This document shows positions 25,355 through 42,780 of a stretch of 64,000 nt of DNA, piece after piece. Origin of the DNA: Haloferax larsenii JCM 13917 (GTDB lineage Archaea > Halobacteriota > Halobacteria > Halobacteriales > Haloferacaceae). Numbering within the stretch: position 1 is the first letter of the stretch; every line of letters starts with the position of its first letter. Made by a program: the position numbers and the translations under genes. Below the pieces are notes generated by a model. It was given only the letters and a program-made list of their open reading frames with translations. It did no database searches and was not told where the DNA came from. The DNA is taken from the NCBI RefSeq assembly GCF_000336955.1, contig NZ_AOLI01000024.1:1-64000 (forward strand). Direction: 5' to 3'.

Positions 25355-26853
<1,499 letters not shown>

Positions 26854-31061: not shown

Positions 31062-31577
31062 ATGTACGGCCCGTTTTCCCGGCGTCGAGTGTGTCTCGGC
31101 GTCGCCGGACTGCTCTCTCTTTCGGGGTGCGCCGGGACGCCCCCCGAGCAGGATGACACGGGGTCGTCGCCGACCGCGACTCGCACTTCCTCGCTACCGG
31201 CCGACACGGAGACGCTCACCACTCGGCCCTCGTCGACGCCCAAGCCCTCGTCCCCGTCGACACCGAACCAACCGTCGCCGTCGAAACCACCGTCGGGCCT
31301 CGACAGCACGCTGGCCGGTCTCGCCGATGCCGACGATAGAGACGCCTATGCCGACCAGCACGGACTGGACTACCGCGATGGGGCCGTGGCGGTCGTGGTC
31401 GAACTCGAACCCGACCGCACGCTCCCCGAATCAGTCGATTTCGAGGCCGAACGGAAGCGCGACCGCCTCGTCTCTGGACGCGTCGCAGTCGACGACCTCA
31501 CCCCGCTTGCGACACACGAGAACGTCACGCTGGTTCGACCGCCGCAAGCGCCCGCTGCCGATGGGGGTGCTGAATGA
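31062..31577 (+). CDS. Tat lipoprotein with a subtilase-prodomain-like C-terminus
   Basis: 171 residues. The N-terminus FSRRRVCLGVAGLLSLSGC carries a twin-arginine motif and a lipobox (L-S-G-C23), so the mature protein is exported folded and lipid-anchored at C23. A Ser/Thr/Pro-rich stalk (residues 30-78) leads to a small domain, residues 80-163. Its strands VAVVVELEPD and VAVDDLTPLATHENVTLVRP match the pattern VTVVVEARPG and VTLPRSAIRGLAASPAIDLV in the propeptide region of the subtilase encoded next. The gene's TGA overlaps the protease ATG (ATGA), which implies coupled translation. Inferred role: membrane-tethered chaperone or inhibitor of the protease. Not a recognised named family. Confidence 0.7.
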   Translation: MYGPFSRRRVCLGVAGLLSLSGCAGTPPEQDDTGSSPTATRTSSLPADTETLTTRPSSTPKPSSPSTPNQPSPSKPPSGLDSTLAGLADADDRDAYADQHGLDYRDGAVAVVVELEPDRTLPESVDFEAERKRDRLVSGRVAVDDLTPLATHENVTLVRPPQAPAADGGAE

Positions 31578-34500
31578 ACCGTTTGGTTGCGCTCGCCGTC
31601 GCCGTCTTACTGCTCGTCGCACCCGTTTCCGGTGCAGCGATGCCAGTACCCGGTGCCGCTGGCGGGGGCGACTCGATATCGGCGGTGTCGGATTCGACGC
31701 CAGAACCGACGCAGACCAGCCCGACACAGGATGCGGGTTCGACGAACAACACGACACAGACCACAGATTCGACCAATAACACGACACAGACGAACGCGAG
31801 TTCTCCTGCGTCGCCGCCAGCCAAGGACACTGGCCATCCGAACGTCGAAGCCGGACTGCTCGACGACCCGCAATCGTCCGGATTCGTCGCAGAGGGACTC
31901 GGAACTGGGCCTGACCGCGTGACGGTCGTCGTCGAAGCGAGGCCGGGGTCGACAACCGCCGCCGCGGCAGCGGTCGGCAACGCTGGCGGTGAGATAGCCA
32001 TCCGACGCGGCACGCATTTGCAGGTGACGCTCCCGCGGTCGGCCATCCGTGGGTTGGCAGCCTCGCCCGCAATCGACCTCGTCAGAACGCCGCGTCGGCC
32101 GACGACGACCGCAATCACGAGCGAGGGACTCGACGAGATGAACGCCTCCGCGCTCCACCAACGGGGGTACACCGGTGAGAACGTCACCGTCGCCGTCATC
32201 GACACCTCGTTCGACGTGACGAACGCCGAAATCGCGGGCAACGTCGTCGAACACCACAACTTCTCCAGCGGCGACGCGACGATGGCGAATTCCTCGGGAC
32301 TACACGGCACTGCCGTCTCCGAACTCGTCGTCGACACCGCACCGAACGTCTCGCTCGCCACCTACAGCGTCGGGACGTACACCGAACTGCTGGCGGCGAT
32401 AGACCGCGTCGAATCCCGCGGCGACGTGGACGTCGTCGTCATGTCGGTGAGTTGGTTCGGCGTCGAATCGCTCGACGGAACCGGGCCGCTCAGTCAGGAA
32501 GTCGAATCTCTCCGGGCGAACGGGACGCTCTGGGTCAACTCGGCGGGGAACTACGGACAGGCCCACCACAACGTCACGTGGTCCGACCCCGACGGCGACG
32601 ACTTTCTGAACTTCGACGGGAGCGACGAACTCCTCGCACTCGACCTGAACGGCGACCTCGACCTCCGAGTGAACTGGGACGACTGGGACGCGCGCACCGC
32701 CGACTACGACGTGTACGTCTACGAGAACGAGACGGCGTTCCAGAACGGCAATCCGATTGCCGGGTCGACGAACACACAGAGCGGGTCGTACCCCCCGACC
32801 GAAGTCATCAGAGGTTCCGGGTCGGGAACCATCTACGTCGCCGTCCACCGGGCAGACGCGCCCGGAACCGCCGACTTCGACCTGTTCTTCCTCGGCGACT
32901 CGTCGGCCGAGTACGTCACCTCCGCCCGCAGTCTGACGGTTCCGGCGGTCGCCGACGCGACGGTCGCCGTGGGCGCGGTCGACCACGACTCGCTCGCGCT
33001 CGAACCGTACTCGTCTCGCGGCCCGACCGTCGATGGCCGCCTGAAGCCCGACCTCGTCGCACCGGACAAAGTGACCACGTCCGCCGACTCGTACTTCGCC
33101 GGGACCTCCGCTGCCGCCCCGCACGCTGGTGGGGTCGCCGCGCTCGTCGTCGACGCCGCCGGCGAACCACTGTCCCCCGACGAACTCGAATCGGCGCTCC
33201 TCGGGTCGGCGACGAAGCTCTCCGGGTCGGAACCGAACGACCAGACGGGCTACGGGCTGGTCAACGCGACCGGCGCGGTCGAACGACTCTCCGTCAGAAC
33301 GGTACAGACGTGCCGGGTAATCGACACGCCCGGGCGGTACGTCCTCGACCGGCCGCTCTCCGCCGCTGGCGGCACCTGCCTCGAAATCACCTCCGACGAC
33401 GTTGTCGTCGAGGGCGACGACCACAGCGTCTCCGGCGATGGGTCGGGAACGGCGCTCTCCATCTCGGGGACCAACGTCACCGTCTCGAACCTCAGCGTCT
33501 CGTCGGTCGGAACGGCAGTCTCTCTCGCTTCGGGGGCGAACGCGACGCTCGATTCCGTCTCCACCGACGCGAGCGAAAACTGGACGGTCGAAGCGGCACA
33601 GCAGACGAACTACACCGCCTCACTGTCGCTCGCGGGCGACAACGTCTCCGTGGATGCCCGGGCCGTCTCGCTCGAACGGAACGCGAGCCATCCCGCAGTT
33701 CCCGCCTCGACGACGCGAGTCGGTGCTCCGCTCTTCGCGCGCTCTGAGTCGGGTGCCGCAACGGCGAATTTCACCGTGACGTACCCCGAGGGAACTGAGA
33801 ACGAGAGTTCGCTTCGCCTCCACAGACACACTGGAACCGAGTGGACTCCCCTCGCGGGGGCTGTCGATACCGACGCGAACACCGTCACGGCAAATGCGTC
33901 TTCGTTCGGCCCGCTGGCGGTGTTCGAACTCTCCGACCCGTTCCTCGCTGCCACGCCGACCGACGTGTCGTTCGGCAGTGTCGACGTCCAGAACTCGTCG
34001 TCGACGACCGCCTCGGTACAGAATCTCGGCGGGAGAGACGCGGCAGTTCAGTCGGTCACAGTCACCGGGCCGAACGCCTCGGCGTTCGCGGTGACTGAGG
34101 GTCTCCCGGCGACGCTCGCCCCCAGCGCCACTGACTCGCTCACTGTCACGTACACCCCGTCAGCTATCGGGACGCACAACGCTACGCTGGCTATCGAATA
34201 CAACGGCTCGTCGTCGCCGACGAACCTCTCCCTTTCGGGGTCGGGAGTCGACCAACACGCACCCGTCGTCACGAACGCGACCGGCGAGTCACTCGGGGCG
34301 AACGCGTCTCTCGTCGGTCGAACCGGGTCGGTACGCGTTACCGCCGACGTGACCGATTCGGTGTCCGGCGTCGCGTCGGTGACGGCCGACCTCTCGGCGT
34401 TCGGCGCTGGCACCGTGTCGCTCGCGCCGAACGAGACGGGGACCTACGTCGCCACTGCGGACGTTGACGAGACGGCCGACGCGAGCGACGGCGCACACGA

Positions 34501-36250
34501 GATTCGCATTCGGGCGACCGACGCTGCGGGCAACACCAACGAGTCTGTCGCCGGAACTGTCGTCTTGGACGCGACGAACGCGACGCTTGGTGTGGATTCG
34601 CCCACGAACCAAACGGCCAACCAGACGACCCTCTCACTGAACGGGACGGCCACCGACGCGACCAGCGGCGTGGCCCACGTCGAGTGGCGACTCGACGGCG
34701 GTTCGTGGACTGAACTCACAGAAACCCAGCCGTGGAATACGTCGGTGTCGGGACTCGCAGACGGCACTCACACGCTCGAATTCCGCGTCACTGACAACGC
34801 GAGCAACGTCGCACCTGTCGTCGAGCGAACTGTCGTCGTCGACACGGTCGCCCCCGCGCTCGGCGGGGTCTCGGCGAACCGGACGACTGCGGTCGAACCG
34901 GGCGGGTCGCTCGCAGTGGACGTCTCGGTCACTGACGCGACCAGCGGCGTGGACCACGTCGAGGCCGGCGGAACCCCACTCACCACGAATCAGACGGGCG
35001 CGAGCGGCGTCGTCACGGCTCGCTCCAACCTCGGTGCCACATCCCTCTCGGTCGTCGCACGCGACGCCGCAGGCAACGAGAACCAGACGACGCTCGACTA
35101 CGATGTCGGGGCGACTGCGACGCTCTCGGCGGCTGGTTCTGGCGTTTTCGCCGCGGACCTCGACGATTCGATGCTTCAACGCGTGCGCGTGAACTCCTCC
35201 GACACTGGTGTCTCGGTACGCTACGGAACTGCGCCGACGGCACCTGCGTCAGTGCCCGCCGCGCCCGGTGACGTGGTGGTGGGCTATCCGCAACTCGACA
35301 CGAATCAGACGGCGGCCGCGGTGTCGAACGCGAGCATCGTCGTGAACGTCTCCGACCAGACGATTTCGTCGGCCTACGCGTTGCCGTCGACAGTCACGGT
35401 TTCGCGGTTCGACGGCAGTTCGTGGGTCGATGCGAACGCGACCCTGGTCGAGACGACCGGTGGGAATCGGTCCTACCGAGTGCCGGTTTCGAACAGTTCG
35501 GTGCTCGCGGTCCACGCCAGCACGGAGTCCGACGCGCCGAACGTGACCGACTACGCGCCGACCGGAACCGTCGATGCAGGCTCGGTGACGCTCTCGGTCG
35601 CCTACGAAGACGGCTACGCTGGCATCGACCCCACCCGCGTCTCGCTTCTGGTCGATGGAACCGACGTGACCGACTCGACCAGCGTCGGCGCCGACGGGGT
35701 CTCGTACACGACCGACCTCGGTGCCGGAAGTCACACAGCCGAGATTACGGTCGTCGACCGCGCGGGGAACCAGCGAACCAAATCGTGGTCGTTCGAGACC
35801 GAGTCTACTGGCGGGTCGTCGGGGAGTTCGACGGGCGGGTCGGCTGGCAGTAGTTCGACCGGCGGAAGCACAGGCTCGACCGGCGGTGGTCTCGCACCTG
35901 CAACGTCACCAACTACGACCTCCACGCCCGCAAATCAGACGACCACCACTCCGAACGCGACGAACACGACGACCGTCAACTCGACTGCGACGAACACGAC
36001 GACTGCGACGACAGCACCAAGCCCCGAAAACGAGAGGCCGAGCGCAAACGAATCGGCGTCACAGACACAGTTGTCGAACGCATCGGAGACCCAGTCTCCT
36101 GCACCCACCGAGGAAGCTGCGGAGTTGACGACGACCGTCACAGATGCTAGCGACGGCGACTCGACAGAGAGTGACGCGCCGGGCTTCGGACTCGTGGCGG
36201 CACTCACGGCACTCGTGGTCGTGGGTGTCCTCGCCCGGCGACGCGGGTAG
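31574..36250 (+). CDS. Giant secreted subtilisin-like (S8) protease with PGF-CTERM anchor
   Basis: 1558 residues. Signal peptide (residues 1-20), an Asn/Thr-rich linker to about 85, and a prodomain-like region 112-175. The S8 catalytic domain spans 185-575: Asp210 (VAVIDTS), His244 (GLHGTAVSE), Asn326 (NSAGN) and Ser512 (GTSAAAPHAGG) form an intact triad plus oxyanion residue, with an insert at 330-440. A beta-helix-like Thr/Ser part follows (to 790), then a choice-of-anchor-D-type domain (794-890), Ig-like repeats (895-1175), a beta domain (1179-1330), another Ig-like module, a Gly/Ser/Thr stalk (1412-1530) and the PGF-CTERM signal (DAPGFGLVAALTALVVVGVL). Many N-glycosylation sequons. Likely cell-wall-anchored extracellular protease. 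Confidence 0.9.
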   Translation: MNRLVALAVAVLLLVAPVSGAAMPVPGAAGGGDSISAVSDSTPEPTQTSPTQDAGSTNNTTQTTDSTNNTTQTNASSPASPPAKDTGHPNVEAGLLDDPQSSGFVAEGLGTGPDRVTVVVEARPGSTTAAAAAVGNAGGEIAIRRGTHLQVTLPRSAIRGLAASPAIDLVRTPRRPTTTAITSEGLDEMNASALHQRGYTGENVTVAVIDTSFDVTNAEIAGNVVEHHNFSSGDATMANSSGLHGTAVSELVVDTAPNVSLATYSVGTYTELLAAIDRVESRGDVDVVVMSVSWFGVESLDGTGPLSQEVESLRANGTLWVNSAGNYGQAHHNVTWSDPDGDDFLNFDGSDELLALDLNGDLDLRVNWDDWDARTADYDVYVYENETAFQNGNPIAGSTNTQSGSYPPTEVIRGSGSGTIYVAVHRADAPGTADFDLFFLGDSSAEYVTSARSLTVPAVADATVAVGAVDHDSLALEPYSSRGPTVDGRLKPDLVAPDKVTTSADSYFAGTSAAAPHAGGVAALVVDAAGEPLSPDELESALLGSATKLSGSEPNDQTGYGLVNATGAVERLSVRTVQTCRVIDTPGRYVLDRPLSAAGGTCLEITSDDVVVEGDDHSVSGDGSGTALSISGTNVTVSNLSVSSVGTAVSLASGANATLDSVSTDASENWTVEAAQQTNYTASLSLAGDNVSVDARAVSLERNASHPAVPASTTRVGAPLFARSESGAATANFTVTYPEGTENESSLRLHRHTGTEWTPLAGAVDTDANTVTANASSFGPLAVFELSDPFLAATPTDVSFGSVDVQNSSSTTASVQNLGGRDAAVQSVTVTGPNASAFAVTEGLPATLAPSATDSLTVTYTPSAIGTHNATLAIEYNGSSSPTNLSLSGSGVDQHAPVVTNATGESLGANASLVGRTGSVRVTADVTDSVSGVASVTADLSAFGAGTVSLAPNETGTYVATADVDETADASDGAHEIRIRATDAAGNTNESVAGTVVLDATNATLGVDSPTNQTANQTTLSLNGTATDATSGVAHVEWRLDGGSWTELTETQPWNTSVSGLADGTHTLEFRVTDNASNVAPVVERTVVVDTVAPALGGVSANRTTAVEPGGSLAVDVSVTDATSGVDHVEAGGTPLTTNQTGASGVVTARSNLGATSLSVVARDAAGNENQTTLDYDVGATATLSAAGSGVFAADLDDSMLQRVRVNSSDTGVSVRYGTAPTAPASVPAAPGDVVVGYPQLDTNQTAAAVSNASIVVNVSDQTISSAYALPSTVTVSRFDGSSWVDANATLVETTGGNRSYRVPVSNSSVLAVHASTESDAPNVTDYAPTGTVDAGSVTLSVAYEDGYAGIDPTRVSLLVDGTDVTDSTSVGADGVSYTTDLGAGSHTAEITVVDRAGNQRTKSWSFETESTGGSSGSSTGGSAGSSSTGGSTGSTGGGLAPATSPTTTSTPANQTTTTPNATNTTTVNSTATNTTTATTAPSPENERPSANESASQTQLSNASETQSPAPTEEAAELTTTVTDASDGDSTESDAPGFGLVAALTALVVVGVLARRRG

Positions 36251-36299: not shown

Positions 36300-37004
36300 T
36301 CACAGGAAGACGCTGACACCGAGCCCGAGTGCTAACACGAGTGCAGGCGCGTCCAGCCGCGTCAGGCGAATCTCCGGAAGCGTGGGGTTCCACGCGAAGC
36401 ATCGCGCACGAAGCGCGAGTGCGAGCGCGTCCGCTCGGGCGAACGACCGCCGGAGCCCACCGGCAGCGACGGTGGCGAGGCGCTCGTCAACTCGTCGCTG
36501 GTCGCCCAGCCGGGCCTTGTTCGCCTCGCGGACCCGAAGGAGGTCACGGCGAACGACCGGCAGGAACCGGAAGACGAGCGCGACGCCGATACCGAAGGCG
36601 ACGCCGACCCGACCGGGAACGAGGCGCTGTATCGCCGCGCGCGACTCGCGAACTGCGGTCGTTCTCACGTACGCCGCGGCGACGAAGAACACCAAGAGCA
36701 CGCGAATACTGGCGAGCGTCGGCGTGACGGCCGCGCTGGGGTCGAACCACGGCGCGCCGAACTGGGCCGCCTCGATGACGGGGCCGAGAAGGAGGAAGGG
36801 AATCGCGTAGCGAATCGCGTGGAGAGCCGAGAGTGGGGACGTGTCGGCGGCGTAGAGACTCGCGGCGGCGACGATGCCGAGGACGGTGAGTCCGGTCGGT
36901 GTCGTGTGTGCGAGTCCGGCCGCTGCGAAGGAAATCTGCACGGCGAGCTTCGTTCGCGGGTCGAGTCTGTGGGCGAGCGAGTCGCCCGGTTCGTAGGTCA
37001 ACAC
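36300..37004 (-). CDS. bioN: ECF transporter transmembrane (T) component, biotin
   Basis: 234 residues, about five to six hydrophobic segments, with the EcfT/CbiQ signature in two parts: SRAAIQRLVPGR and the coupling helix FRFLPVVRRDLLRVREANKA (around residues 146-165, with the A-R-G/A-x-R-type motif that contacts the ATPase). Its start overlaps the end of the ATPase gene by 7 bases. Together with bioM and bioY it forms a BioMNY biotin importer. Confidence 0.88.
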   Translation of the reverse strand: MLTYEPGDSLAHRLDPRTKLAVQISFAAAGLAHTTPTGLTVLGIVAAASLYAADTSPLSALHAIRYAIPFLLLGPVIEAAQFGAPWFDPSAAVTPTLASIRVLLVFFVAAAYVRTTAVRESRAAIQRLVPGRVGVAFGIGVALVFRFLPVVRRDLLRVREANKARLGDQRRVDERLATVAAGGLRRSFARADALALALRARCFAWNPTLPEIRLTRLDAPALVLALGLGVSVFL

Positions 37005-37699
37005 GGCGGGCGAACGTCGAGGTCGGGGAGGTCGTCTGCGACCGCCTCGGGAGCGCCGTCGAGGGCGACCCGGCCGTCCGAGAGGACGACCACTCGGTCG
37101 GCCAGTTCGCTCACGTCGCGCAGGTCGTGGGTGACGACGATGAGGCTGGTTCCCGACGCGCGCAGGTCGCGGAGACGCGAGAGAACCGACTCGCGGGCGG
37201 GTTCGTCGAGGCCGGTAAACGGTTCGTCGAGGACGAGATGGTCTGGCTGCATCGCCAGCGCGCCCGCGATTGCGAGGCGCTCGACTTCGCCACCCGAAAG
37301 CGCGTCGACGCGCTCGCTCTCGCGTCCGTCGAGGTTGACGGCGGCGAGTGCGTCGTGGACGCGGCGGTCGATTTCGCCCCGGTCGAGCCCGAGGTTCTCC
37401 GGCCCGAAGGCGACGTCAGCACCGATTGTCGCGGCGACCAGTTGGTCCTCTGGGCGCTGAAACACCATCGAGACGGCGGTACGCGCGGCGACGAGGTTTT
37501 CGGACACGTCGGAACCGTTGACGTGAACCGTGCCCTCGTCGGGTTCGAGCAGGCCGTTGAAGTGGCGGACGAGCGTCGTCTTGCCGGACCCGTTCGCCCC
37601 CGCGAGAATGACGCATTCGCCGTCGTCGATGGTGAGGTCGAGCCCATCGACTGCGGCGGTGTCGCCGTAGCGGTGGACGAGGTCCGCGACCCGTATCAT
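36998..37699 (-). CDS. bioM: ECF transporter ATPase (A) component, biotin
   Basis: 233 residues, one ABC ATPase domain: Walker A AGANGSGKTT (about residues 34-43), Q-loop FQRPEDQLVAATIGADVAFG (the FQxPExQ form seen in ECF/cobalt ATPases), signature LSGGEVERLAIAGAL, Walker B DHLVLDEPFTGLD and H-loop VTHDL. A single A component pairs with itself in BioMNY. Lies between bioY (3-base gap) and bioN (7-base overlap), so one operon read on the minus strand. Confidence 0.9.
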   Translation of the reverse strand: MIRVADLVHRYGDTAAVDGLDLTIDDGECVILAGANGSGKTTLVRHFNGLLEPDEGTVHVNGSDVSENLVAARTAVSMVFQRPEDQLVAATIGADVAFGPENLGLDRGEIDRRVHDALAAVNLDGRESERVDALSGGEVERLAIAGALAMQPDHLVLDEPFTGLDEPARESVLSRLRDLRASGTSLIVVTHDLRDVSELADRVVVLSDGRVALDGAPEAVADDLPDLDVRPPC

Positions 37700-37702
37700 C
37701 GG

Positions 37703-38281
37703 TTAGTTCGCCGCGATTGCGTCGGAGCGGACGATACCGATTGCGGCGGCAATCTTGAACGCCTCGGCGGGGATGAACGCCGCGGCGACGGTCCAGAAGG
37801 ACGTGACGAGACCGACGCCTTGGACGACGCTGTAGCCGACCGTACCGAACGCGTAGACGACTGCCGTCGCAGCGACCATCGCGCCGACGAGACGGACGGT
37901 GCCGACGCGGTAGTCACGGAGCGCGAACCCGCCGTGGACGATGACGCCGGTGATGAACGCGGCGACGGGGAACGACCAGAGGAATCCGCCAGTCGGCCCG
38001 ACGAGCGCACCGAACCCGGCGGACCCGCCTGCGAAGACCGGCGCACCGATTGCACCGGCGGCGAGGTACAGGACAATCGAGGTGCCGCCCCATACGGGGC
38101 CGAGGAAGATACCCGCGAGGAAGACGACGAGCATCTGCATCGTCACCGGAATCGGTGAGATTGGGTTGGGGAACGAGACGTACGCACCAGCACCCATGAG
38201 CGCCGCAAACAGGGCCGCACGGGCGACGTTGGCGACGACTTCGTCGCCGACGAGTTCGACCGACTCGTGTTCAGTTGCCAT
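37703..38281 (-). CDS. bioY: BioY, biotin-binding substrate component of ECF transporter
   Basis: 192 residues, six hydrophobic segments. The family patterns are visible: NPISPIPVTMQMLVVFLAGI after the first helix (the PVPxTxQ-type motif), YLAAGAIGAPVFAGGSAGF (the YLxxGxxGxPVF motif) and GPTGGFLWSFPVAAFITG. BioY binds biotin at nanomolar affinity. The gene begins the operon and carries the BirA-type operator at 38297 in its promoter, so repression in biotin excess is expected. Confidence 0.93.
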   Translation of the reverse strand: MATEHESVELVGDEVVANVARAALFAALMGAGAYVSFPNPISPIPVTMQMLVVFLAGIFLGPVWGGTSIVLYLAAGAIGAPVFAGGSAGFGALVGPTGGFLWSFPVAAFITGVIVHGGFALRDYRVGTVRLVGAMVAATAVVYAFGTVGYSVVQGVGLVTSFWTVAAAFIPAEAFKIAAAIGIVRSDAIAAN

Positions 38282-39078: not shown

Positions 39079-39102
39079 CGATTGGGAACATACCCATCTT
39101 CG

Positions 39103-42100
39103 ATGTCGCAGGCCCCTCAAAACCGAGAACTCACAGAGCGGTTCATCCAGTTCTACCGCAACTACTATCGGGAGGAAATCGGAGACCTGGCACAGCAGTA
39201 CCCGAAAGAAAAGCGCTCTCTGTACATCGATTACGACGACCTGTACAACTTCGACCCGGAACTCGCCGACGACTACGTCACGAAACCCGGGCAGTATCAG
39301 GAGTACGCCGAGGAAGCCCTGCGACTGTTCGACCTGCCCGCGGACGTCAAACTCGGACAGGCACACGTCCGGATGCGAAACCTCCCCGACACCATCGACA
39401 TCCGCAACATCCGGGTCAACGACGACCACATCGGGACGCTCATCGCCGTCCAAGGAATCGTCCGCAAGGCGACCGACGTGCGCCCGAAGATTACCGAGGC
39501 GGCCTTCGAATGCCAGCGCTGTGGGACGATGAGTTACATCCCGCAGGGCGACGGCGGGTTCCAGGAACCCCACGAGTGTCAGGGCTGTGAACGACAAGGG
39601 CCGTTCCGCATCGAGTTCGACCAGTCGAACTTCGTCGACTCTCAGAAACTACGCGTCCAAGAATCCCCCGAGGGCCTGCGCGGGGGCGAGACGCCACAGA
39701 GTATCGACATCAATCTCGCCGACGACGTGACCGGGAAAGTCACCGCCGGCGACCACGTCACCGTCGTCGGCATCCTCCACATCGAACAACAAACCTCTGG
39801 AAACGAGAAGACGCCCGTCTTCGACTACTACATGGAGGGCATCGCGCTCTCTATCGAAGACGAGGAGTTCGAGGACATGGAGATTACCGACGACGACGTG
39901 GCCGAAATCGTCGAACTCTCGAACGAACCCAACATCTACGAGAAGATGGTCGATTCCGTGGCGCCGGCCATCTACGGCTACGAACAGGAGAAACTCGCCA
40001 TGATTCTCCAACTGTTCTCGGGTGTCACCAAACATCTCCCCGACGGGTCGCGGATTCGCGGCGACCTGCACATGTTGTTGATAGGGGACCCCGGAACTGG
40101 CAAATCGCAGATGTTATCATATATCCGACATATTGCGCCACGCTCCGTCTACACCTCGGGTAAGGGTTCCTCGTCTGCAGGTCTCTGTGTGACTGGTGAC
40201 ACTCGAATCCACACCGAAGACGGATTCCGAGAAATCGAAACTGTCGCACTCGACGAACACCCCAAACCAGTATCAGAGGAGACGAGCGCGGGGAAACAGG
40301 TGGGAATACAGACGTTCGATAGGAACGCGGGCGAGATGACCGAGCGACAATCCTCTCACGTCTGGCGTATGCCGAAAAAGCCGTGCCGACGCATCGAGAC
40401 CGCACACGGAAAGACGCTCACAGCGTCCGAAAACACGCCTGTTCTGACGTGTGGAAAACAGGGTATCGAGTGGGTCGATATCTCGGACATTGAGCCGGGA
40501 CAGTTTGTTGCAGTCCCGAAGTATGGTGAACTCGAACGTTCTGAAGTTCCTGTTCGAGACTTCCTCGAACTGACGACCGAGAAGGTGAAACTCTCTGAGG
40601 AGTCTATCGAACTCGTTCGAGACGAACTATGTGGGCGGTTCGGCCACCTACGGGCCGCAGCAGCCGCGCTCGACCTCTCAGAGGACTTCGTATACGATTC
40701 CCTCCGGAACCGTCACATACCTCTCTCGAAACTCGATAGGATGCTTGATGCTGTCGAACTGACCCGTGACGCCATAGACTTCGACCGCGTAATGATCCGT
40801 CACGGGGACAGTATCACTGTTCCGGAGACGTTCGACGAGGACCTCATGTACCTCCTCGGGCTTGTCTTCGGCGATGGTGATATCTCTCTCGACCGGCGTG
40901 GCGGTAACCGTGGACTGGTCCGGATTTCGAACAGTGACGAGGCGCTGTTAGAACGAGCGAAAGCGATCTTTGCCGACAAGTTCGACAAACATCCGGAGAT
41001 TGAGCGTCAGTCCGGGCGGGTACCGTGTATCAGGGTGAGCAGTGCGACGATTGCACGGCTCTTCGCAAACGCCGGAATGGAAACGCCAAAGGTCGATCTG
41101 GAACTCGCACCCGAACTGACGACGGCGGCGCACGCTGACGCATTCCTCCGGGGGTTGATGGATGCTGACGGCTCCGTTTCGGTCCGTGAAAACGGCGGAT
41201 CGAGCATTCTCATTTCTACTATCAGCGAACCGCTTGCCGAGCAAGTGCAGCTGATGCTGGAGACGTACGGTATTCGTGCGCGTCGACGTGAGCGCGACCG
41301 GCGTGGAACGTCTGAGCTTGCGAACGGTCACACAATCGAATCGAAGCACGTCCAGCACTTCCTGGAGATGTATGGTTCGAACATCGAGCGGTATGCCGAC
41401 GAGATTGGATTCGATGTCGAAGCCAAACAACAAGCGCTTGATAAAATCACGAACGCCGCGCGGCGACGAGAGGAAACGATTCCTGTCGGCTCAGCATTGG
41501 TCGCAACTGATGGTGCGGGCGGTGCATATCATACGAACGTCTCTCGTGGCGATAATCCGGGGCGTGGACGTTCGAAAGAGATTCTCGAGAATGTCGACCT
41601 CGGGGATGCGGAATCTGCTATTCGTGAGGCGGTCGATGCCGACCTCCGGTGGGACCGCGTCGTCGATTCGGCGGCTGTCGGTGAGCGGGAAGTGTTTGAC
41701 TTGACAGTCCCCGAAACACACAATTTCGTTGGCAACGGTATCGTGACCCACAACACCGCCGCCGCCGTCCGCGACGATTTCGGCGACGGCCAGCAGTGGA
41801 CGCTCGAAGCGGGTGCGCTCGTCCTCGCCGACAAGGGAATTGCGGCAGTCGACGAACTGGATAAAATGAGGAGCGAAGACCGCTCTGCGATGCACGAGGG
41901 CCTCGAACAACAGCAGATTTCGGTCTCTAAGGCGGGTATCAACGCGACGCTCAAGTCACGGTGTTCGCTTCTCGGCGCGGCGAACCCGAAGTACGGTCGA
42001 TTCGACCAGTACGAACCAATCGGTGAGCAAATCGACCTCGAACCGGCGCTCATCTCCCGATTCGACCTCATCTTCACGGTCACAGACGACCCCGACCCCG

Positions 42101-42780
42101 ACACCGACGCCGAACTCGCAGAACACATCATCAAGACGAACTACGCAGGGGAGTTGAACACCCAGCGGACGAACGTCGCGAACTCCGAGTTCACCGAAGA
42201 GCAGGTCAACTCCGTCACGGACGAAGTCGCACCCGACATCGACGCCGAACTCCTTCGGAAGTACATCGCCTACTCCAAGCGGACCTGCTACCCGACGCTG
42301 ACCGAGGAAGCCAAGAACATCATCCGCGACTTCTACGTCGACTTCCGCGCCCGCGGGGCTGACGAGGACGCACCGGTGCCCGTCACGGCCCGGAAACTCG
42401 AAGCGCTCGTTCGGCTCTCGGAGGCCTCGGCGCGTGTCCGTCTGTCGGACAAAGTGACCGCCGAAGACGCAGAGCGCGTCACCGGCATCGTCGAGTCGTG
42501 TCTACGCGATATCGGGATGGACCCCGAGACGGGCGAGTTCGACGCCGACATCGTCGAGACGGGACGTTCGAAGACCCAGCGCGACCGTATCAAGAACCTC
42601 CTCGAACTCATCCGCAACATGCAAGAAGAGTACGAAGAGGGTGCGCCACACGAAGAGGTCGTCGAGCGCGCCAACGCCGAGTTGAACATGGACGAAAAGA
42701 CGGTCGGCGACCAACTGGAGAAACTCAAGATGAAAGGCGATATCTACGAACCGCGCGGCGACGTCTACCGGGCGACGTAG
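39103..42780 (+). CDS. mcm: MCM replicative helicase, interrupted by an intein
   Basis: 1225 codons encoding about 702 residues of MCM plus a 523-residue intein (entry at 40186). The N-terminal hexamerisation domain has a zinc site (CQRCG and CQGCE, about residues 135-165). The AAA+ domain has Walker A GDPGTGKSQM (about 328-337). After the intein come the Walker B AAVDELDKM, sensor 1 GAANPKYG, the arginine finger LISRFDLIF and the C-terminal winged helix. The two extein halves join as GSSSAGL/TAAAVRDDFG, restoring the conserved MCM sequence. MCM is essential, so the intein must splice efficiently or be under purifying selection for splicing. Confidence 0.96.
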   Translation: MSQAPQNRELTERFIQFYRNYYREEIGDLAQQYPKEKRSLYIDYDDLYNFDPELADDYVTKPGQYQEYAEEALRLFDLPADVKLGQAHVRMRNLPDTIDIRNIRVNDDHIGTLIAVQGIVRKATDVRPKITEAAFECQRCGTMSYIPQGDGGFQEPHECQGCERQGPFRIEFDQSNFVDSQKLRVQESPEGLRGGETPQSIDINLADDVTGKVTAGDHVTVVGILHIEQQTSGNEKTPVFDYYMEGIALSIEDEEFEDMEITDDDVAEIVELSNEPNIYEKMVDSVAPAIYGYEQEKLAMILQLFSGVTKHLPDGSRIRGDLHMLLIGDPGTGKSQMLSYIRHIAPRSVYTSGKGSSSAGLCVTGDTRIHTEDGFREIETVALDEHPKPVSEETSAGKQVGIQTFDRNAGEMTERQSSHVWRMPKKPCRRIETAHGKTLTASENTPVLTCGKQGIEWVDISDIEPGQFVAVPKYGELERSEVPVRDFLELTTEKVKLSEESIELVRDELCGRFGHLRAAAAALDLSEDFVYDSLRNRHIPLSKLDRMLDAVELTRDAIDFDRVMIRHGDSITVPETFDEDLMYLLGLVFGDGDISLDRRGGNRGLVRISNSDEALLERAKAIFADKFDKHPEIERQSGRVPCIRVSSATIARLFANAGMETPKVDLELAPELTTAAHADAFLRGLMDADGSVSVRENGGSSILISTISEPLAEQVQLMLETYGIRARRRERDRRGTSELANGHTIESKHVQHFLEMYGSNIERYADEIGFDVEAKQQALDKITNAARRREETIPVGSALVATDGAGGAYHTNVSRGDNPGRGRSKEILENVDLGDAESAIREAVDADLRWDRVVDSAAVGEREVFDLTVPETHNFVGNGIVTHNTAAAVRDDFGDGQQWTLEAGALVLADKGIAAVDELDKMRSEDRSAMHEGLEQQQISVSKAGINATLKSRCSLLGAANPKYGRFDQYEPIGEQIDLEPALISRFDLIFTVTDDPDPDTDAELAEHIIKTNYAGELNTQRTNVANSEFTEEQVNSVTDEVAPDIDAELLRKYIAYSKRTCYPTLTEEAKNIIRDFYVDFRARGADEDAPVPVTARKLEALVRLSEASARVRLSDKVTAEDAERVTGIVESCLRDIGMDPETGEFDADIVETGRSKTQRDRIKNLLELIRNMQEEYEEGAPHEEVVERANAELNMDEKTVGDQLEKLKMKGDIYEPRGDVYRAT
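40186..41754 (+). mobile_element. Intein with LAGLIDADG homing endonuclease inside mcm
   Basis: Starts with Cys (CVTGDTRIHTEDGFREIE, block A) and ends with NFVGNGIVTHN (blocks F and G, penultimate His and terminal Asn), followed by Thr as the +1 nucleophile. Length 523 residues. The endonuclease motifs are LLGLVFGDGD (block C) and FLRGLMDADG (block E), both with acidic residues, so cleavage activity looks possible. Block B reads HGKTLTASENTPVL where most inteins have T-x-x-H; the His appears to be absent. Base composition is visibly less GC-rich than the exteins, a sign of transfer. Confidence 0.95.

Follow-up and report, generated by a model that had tools for sequence, protein, structure and literature searches.

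The stretch of Haloferax larsenii DNA analysed here, which is 64,000 nucleotides long and is called the window below, carries a gene for a small lipoprotein followed on the same strand by that of a large surface subtilase, the stop codon of the first overlapping the start codon of the second (Table 1). An initial annotation had given the coordinates and lengths of both genes, the twin arginine at residues 7 and 8 of the lipoprotein, its LSGC lipobox with Cys23 and the ATGA overlap, and all of these agree with the sequence. The N-terminus of the lipoprotein has, judged by pattern only, what is expected of a Tat lipoprotein, namely a twin arginine (SRRRV) before a hydrophobic stretch and then LSGC, and profile searches place the protein in no family of Pfam or NCBIfam. 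Its orthologue in Haloferax elongans, the only congener with the pair, is 91% identical and has the identical overlap arrangement.

Table 1. Features of the lipoprotein-subtilase locus, in positions of the window.
Feature	Position	Strand	Basis
Partner lipoprotein gene, 171 aa	31062..31577	+	ORF, translation; 91% identical orthologue in Haloferax elongans
Signal peptide of lipoprotein, twin Arg SRRRV (R7R8), lipobox LSGC, predicted lipidated Cys23	31062..31130	+	Sequence, pattern table
Low-complexity Ser/Thr/Pro linker, residues 24-79, joining lipid anchor to folded domain	31131..31298	+	Sequence
I9-like prodomain-type domain, residues 80-163	31299..31550	+	AF2, structure matches, homology to subtilase prodomain
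Loop replacing helix α1, residues 116-126, ..RTLPES..	31407..31439	+	DSSP on model, alignment
ATGA stop-start overlap	31574..31577	+	Sequence; coupling seen in relatives
S8 subtilase gene, 1558 aa	31574..36250	+	ORF; Pfam Peptidase_S8
Sec-type signal peptide of subtilase (approximate)	31574..31636	+	Sequence
Cis prodomain of subtilase, residues 115-178, β-α-β-β-α-β	31916..32107	+	AF2 secondary structure
Catalytic domain, from predicted mature residue 179	32108..33298	+	Structural alignment, invariant columns
β-rich insertion between Asn326 and Ser512	32561..32908	+	DSSP strands 247-362 of model
Choice-of-anchor-D/HYDIN-type and Ig-like domains (approximate)	33947..34846	+	Pfam/NCBIfam
PGF-CTERM archaeosortase signal	36164..36247	+	TIGR04126, PF18204

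The larger protein belongs to peptidase family S8, as seen from its match to PF00082 (E 7.2e-21), the Asp/His/Ser triad with the oxyanion Asn and the fold of its model (Z about 33-34), and the four residues D210, H244, N326 and S512 are invariant across 23 aligned relatives. In the structural alignment (Z about 33-34), residue 96 of the model, which is residue 179 of the protein, falls on residue 1 of mature subtilisin. The insertion before the catalytic serine lies in a jelly-roll-like position, as in CspB and Tk-SP (PMC3567191). The C-terminal anchor signal scores 26.5 bits against TIGR04126 (cut-off 24.5) and 17.8 bits against Pfam PF18204, slightly under the cut-off of the latter. Elsewhere in the window, a biotin ECF transporter set (CbiQ-type, ABC ATPase and BioY genes, 36300-38281) lies immediately downstream on the opposite strand, the MCM helicase gene (39082-42780) contains an intein that bears LAGLIDADG endonuclease domains, and a DUF7827 surface protein with its own PGF-CTERM is encoded at 25355-26398.

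The textbook example of a chaperone that acts within its own chain and is also an inhibitor is the prodomain of subtilases. The initial annotation had noticed that two motifs of the lipoprotein line up in order with motifs of the subtilase just before its catalytic domain, and this is so: VAVVVELEPD (from residue 109) pairs with VTVVVEARPG (from subtilase residue 116) and VAVDDL... (141) with VTLPRS... (151), the spacing being 32 residues in the lipoprotein and 35 in the subtilase. A two-sequence BLASTP comparison of the two proteins gave nothing significant, the VVVE region appearing only at E 0.97. Profiles were then built from lipoprotein relatives of the same GTDB family and from 16 prodomains of subtilase orthologues, and hhalign aligned the lipoprotein domain with the subtilase prodomain at 97.1% and E 5.5e-11 over 67 columns, spanning β1 to the tail, with a 5-residue gap at the site of the missing helix α1; with 20 lipoproteins the values were 96.7% and E 3.4e-10. 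Controls remained at or below 0.6% in 100 column-shuffled prodomain profiles and at 0.2% with a reversed profile. In a six-frame scan of whole genomes, the lipoprotein profile also finds the prodomain of the neighbouring subtilase in nine genomes, the window included, and there are further cases too. At the level of profile comparison, homology between the last ~85 residues of the lipoprotein and the prodomain of the subtilase itself is thus confirmed. For distant searches the full-length lipoprotein was not used as query, its signal and linker matching unrelated lipoproteins. Sequence searches of the PDB with the lipoprotein and prodomain profiles returned no matches, and Pfam Inhibitor_I9 matched neither the lipoproteins, at E up to 1, nor the cis prodomains of the subtilases; since this profile misses the cis prodomains as well, its reach evidently excludes the whole group. 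We therefore call the domain I9-like and do not file it as a member of I9.

As a check on this homology, the initial annotation had looked to a comparison with I9 folds, and in prediction both regions are indeed I9-like, the lipoprotein without α1. The AF2 model of the lipoprotein domain, made from an alignment of 20 rows only (mean pLDDT 82), consists of two helices, β1, a loop, β2, β3, α2 and β4, followed by a tail, so that the full β-α-β-β-α-β topology is not reached, a loop (model residues 41-51) standing in place of α1. The proline at residue 122, within this loop, is invariant in the alignment of 20 relatives. The cis prodomain, with predicted elements E32-39, H44-53, E57-62, E65-71, H72-79 and E84-88 (numbering of a construct starting at residue 84), matches the lipoprotein model element by element save for α1. 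Foldseek returned as the top five matches to the lipoprotein model the prodomain of Clostridium CspB (4i0w_A, E 0.012), Tk-subtilisin (two entries), PAM protease and cucumisin, while VIA-align gave as its best match Tk-SP (3afg, Z 8.1, 83 residues, 3.1 Å) and further ones to Tk-subtilisin, BPN', PCSK9 and POIA1, with many prodomains at Z 5-7. The 32 highest-ranking VIA rows all belong to solved structures of prodomains or prosubtilases or to the propeptide-type inhibitor POIA1, and the first other fold, NapD, follows at Z 5.0. The single E-values and Z-scores are modest; for these predicted models, the weight is in the uniformity of the structural match list.

The same α1-less domain is found in cis as well. 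In subtilases of about 500-630 aa from one GTDB family (f3), it is fused immediately N-terminal to the catalytic domain (genomes G441, G321, G442, G446, G367, G440, G438, G444 and G269; loci L143-L147 and L129-L140), and these enzymes form one catalytic clade with support 100/99. Compared by hhalign, this cis domain reaches 97.4% (E 1.2e-11) against the lipoproteins and 67% against the α1-containing prodomains. As judged from these sequences, such fusion fixes the natural place of the α1-less domain as the prodomain position, and it suggests that loss of α1 is compatible with that position. The lipoprotein domain had been described initially as a duplicated prodomain. Its shared ancestry with the prodomain stands, but a duplication from the adjoining subtilase does not follow, as α1 is absent and the profile is nearest to the cis prodomain of another clade; the partner may have originated either by duplication of a present prodomain or by the splitting of an α1-less cis form.

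Partner lipoproteins were found in 22 haloarchaeal genomes from five GTDB families, 12 of them in Haloferacaceae (f1), seven in f3 and one each in f2, f4 and f6, and an S8 subtilase adjoins the partner in 22/22. Four weak matches to the lipoprotein domain (G016, G086:C21, G027 and G064; E 2e-5 to 7e-3) were set aside as wrong-frame noise, and loci L138 and L141, which hold no subtilases, were rejected. One partner (G434, f3) is truncated at a contig end, which leaves 21 complete pairs, and in 17 of them the distance between stop and start is -8 to +1 nt; at G364 the subtilase is divergent and one gene intervenes. The pair is thus kept as coupled neighbours in other haloarchaeal genomes, as the initial annotation would have it. 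Distances between partners correlate with those between catalytic domains (Mantel r 0.81, p 0.0002, a figure confounded by shared phylogeny), and G155 (f1) and G393 (f2) are mutual nearest for both genes despite belonging to different families, which together suggests that both genes travel together. Orthologous subtilases in G041, G038, G062, G063, G096b and G119 have no partner, and the label "paired" requires 9 changes on the catalytic tree, so that gain and loss of the partner have been frequent. A search for remnants of the partner domain ahead of the unpaired subtilases found none, and all that G038 shows there is an N-terminal fragment of Tat-like type in an open frame. Two further loci may be recorded here. 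G096 (L037) encodes, besides its paired enzyme, another subtilase of this group, near those of G155 and G393 and without a partner, and at L050 (G035) a subtilase of this group has neither a recognisable prodomain nor an upstream partner gene.

By a pattern survey of the 21 complete partners, 18 carry a lipobox (a weak one, CAGC, in G419), two have a C-terminal hydrophobic or transmembrane segment and one shows no anchor. Those with the C-terminal segment, G166 and G270, begin with a Sec-like signal, and the partner of G471 (L142, 7987-8511, minus strand) has no visible signal and is ATGA-coupled to a Sec-type subtilase. A twin arginine precedes the lipobox in 11 of the 18 and is lacking in the other 7. 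Membrane attachment therefore seems nearly constant in the family by its sequence patterns, the means vary, and the Tat signal is not conserved. The initial annotation had set a lipoprotein exported by Tat against a protease exported by Sec; as a family rule this does not hold, given the 7/18 lipobox partners without twin arginine, the two anchored by a transmembrane segment and four subtilases without a signal, and after the signal survey the Tat/Sec contrast was dropped as the mechanistic key.

These observations point to a reading, to which we give a probability of about 0.6, in which the product of the upstream gene is a free-standing relative of the prodomain, tethered to the membrane, that would inhibit the mature protease in trans. 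Most likely, then, the protease has a second, membrane-fixed cap besides its own prodomain. We infer binding, inhibition and the order of events as follows. The lipoprotein domain would dock on the mature catalytic domain where the cleaved cis prodomain had sat, and its C-terminal tail (VRPPxxP...) would lie along the cleft of the active site and inhibit in the manner of a reaction product. In this way the protease, once exported, could be kept inactive at the membrane until either it has been transferred to the site of its archaeosortase anchor or the tethered inhibitor has been cleaved. Some part in folding is possible and would be secondary, because the protease retains a full prodomain of its own. 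As residue 179 corresponds to mature subtilisin residue 1, cleavage is expected about 8 residues past Val170 of the last prodomain strand, and eight partners (G096, G086, G090, G085, G036, G361, G364 and G275) end 8-10 residues past the equivalent valine, their tail lengths being counted from the sequences and not from an automatic Val pattern. The end of these chains coincides with the predicted P1 of the cis prodomain, as in a processed prodomain; in over half of the partners the tail extends past the predicted P1, so a product-like end is not universal. The partner of G471, with no visible signal, and the signal-less type II subtilases described below fit this reading less readily. Known prodomains offer precedents for both activities. 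That of CspB restores folding when supplied in trans, and access to the active site is blocked by its final three residues (PMC3567191), and the propeptide of pernisine, an archaeal subtilase, is a tight and selective inhibitor, such propeptides being described as non-essential for folding (PMC10580911).

In such an arrangement the built-in prodomain is kept and a second one is added, which is held at the membrane and synthesised shortly before the protease, with the tether reached variously by a lipid via Tat, a lipid via Sec or a transmembrane segment. The system would allow a direct test of how cells keep folding apart from control over where a dangerous surface protease acts, and it provides an annotation for a protein family unmatched in Pfam and NCBIfam.

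Among known systems, POIA1 resembles the lipoprotein in being a prodomain fold that serves as a separate inhibitor, and its complex with subtilisin BPN' (1v5i) matches the model at Z 5.4. POIA1 has helix α1, and to our knowledge it has neither a cognate protease encoded with it nor a membrane tether. The CspB prodomain is encoded in cis, its use in trans being an experimental construct, and its protease bears a jelly-roll insertion (PMC3567191). Closer in gene arrangement is Aeromonas sobria, in which ORF2, a separate protein encoded beside the subtilase ASP, reaches the catalytic site with its C-terminus and inhibits the enzyme (PMC5638518). ASP, however, has no propeptide, the ORF2 gene is downstream and no tether is described, whereas the haloarchaeal subtilase keeps its prodomain and its partner is lipid-anchored and upstream; the window and its relatives thus share with ORF2-type chaperones the adjoining gene, and not the propeptide-less protease. 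In Treponema denticola, the gene of a small lipoprotein, PrcB, precedes that of the subtilase PrtP in one operon, as in the haloarchaeal pair, and the protease requires PrcB (PMC8167434). Homologues of this lipoprotein are said to be confined to oral treponemes (PMC8167434), no prodomain nature is described for it, and dentilisin differs further in having a third gene, PrcA, and in that PrtP itself is acylated. The initial statement that no pair of this kind had been described was hence too strong, ASP/ORF2 and PrcB/PrtP being described functional analogues; in the open-licence papers searched, no subtilase that keeps its prodomain was found to be coupled to a prodomain homologue with a lipid tether.

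The Aeromonas case, together with the membrane-anchored lipase foldases, gives a model for an obligate external foldase, in which folding of the protease outside the cell would need the lipoprotein. Homology to a class of domains that fold subtilases, also in trans as with CspB, and a partner gene that comes first and is coupled would both fit such a role, as does the ORF2 precedent itself. The paired subtilases examined nevertheless retain their cis prodomain, and the orthologues listed above (G041, G038, G062, G063, G096b and G119) manage without any partner. Because the prodomain is kept and many relatives have no partner, inhibition with spatial control is favoured, and an obligate foldase is the less likely role, one that we regard as rather unlikely.

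More doubtful still is an assembly or tethering subunit, a structural component of a surface protease complex that would keep the protease membrane-bound, the part that PrcB plays for PrtP in dentilisin. The gene order from lipoprotein to subtilase is the same, PrcB interacts with PrtP, which requires it, and the anchor of the haloarchaeal partner is nearly constant though its signal types vary. Most paired subtilases, however, have a C-terminal anchor of their own (a PGF-CTERM-like end), and the fold of the partner is that of a prodomain and not of a neutral adaptor. That the prodomain-like lipoprotein stands upstream by chance, with no functional link, is hardly credible in view of 22/22 adjoining genes, coupling in 17/21 and co-divergence.

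Within the favoured reading of a tethered inhibitor acting in trans, one group of loci may add a step. In the type II loci (G202, G275, G271 and G364, all of f3), each partner is a lipoprotein of Tat type and its subtilase begins without a signal peptide; the subtilase frames of G202, G275 and G271 contain no extra start upstream. As these partners are all of Tat type and their subtilases are signal-less, the lipoprotein could conceivably associate in the cytoplasm with a protease already folded and inhibited, carry it out through Tat as a hitchhiker and deliver it capped to the membrane, a speculative proposal that we hold to be improbable. A parallel is offered by FAD-glucose dehydrogenase, whose γ subunit is a small partner with a Tat signal needed for folding and export of the catalytic subunit (PMC6719666), although fold and enzyme are unrelated. 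The type II loci (L099, L100, L101 and L098) have some further features. Neighbouring genes at L099 (10238-15915), L100 (125-1837) and L101 (5310-7634, reverse-complement) encode proteins with a common C-terminal domain whose end resembles ..SLPxRYVGGTYELxVTxxN..; one of these proteins has a Tat signal, the others no visible signal. The subtilases of L101 and L100 terminate in PQQ-type β-propellers.
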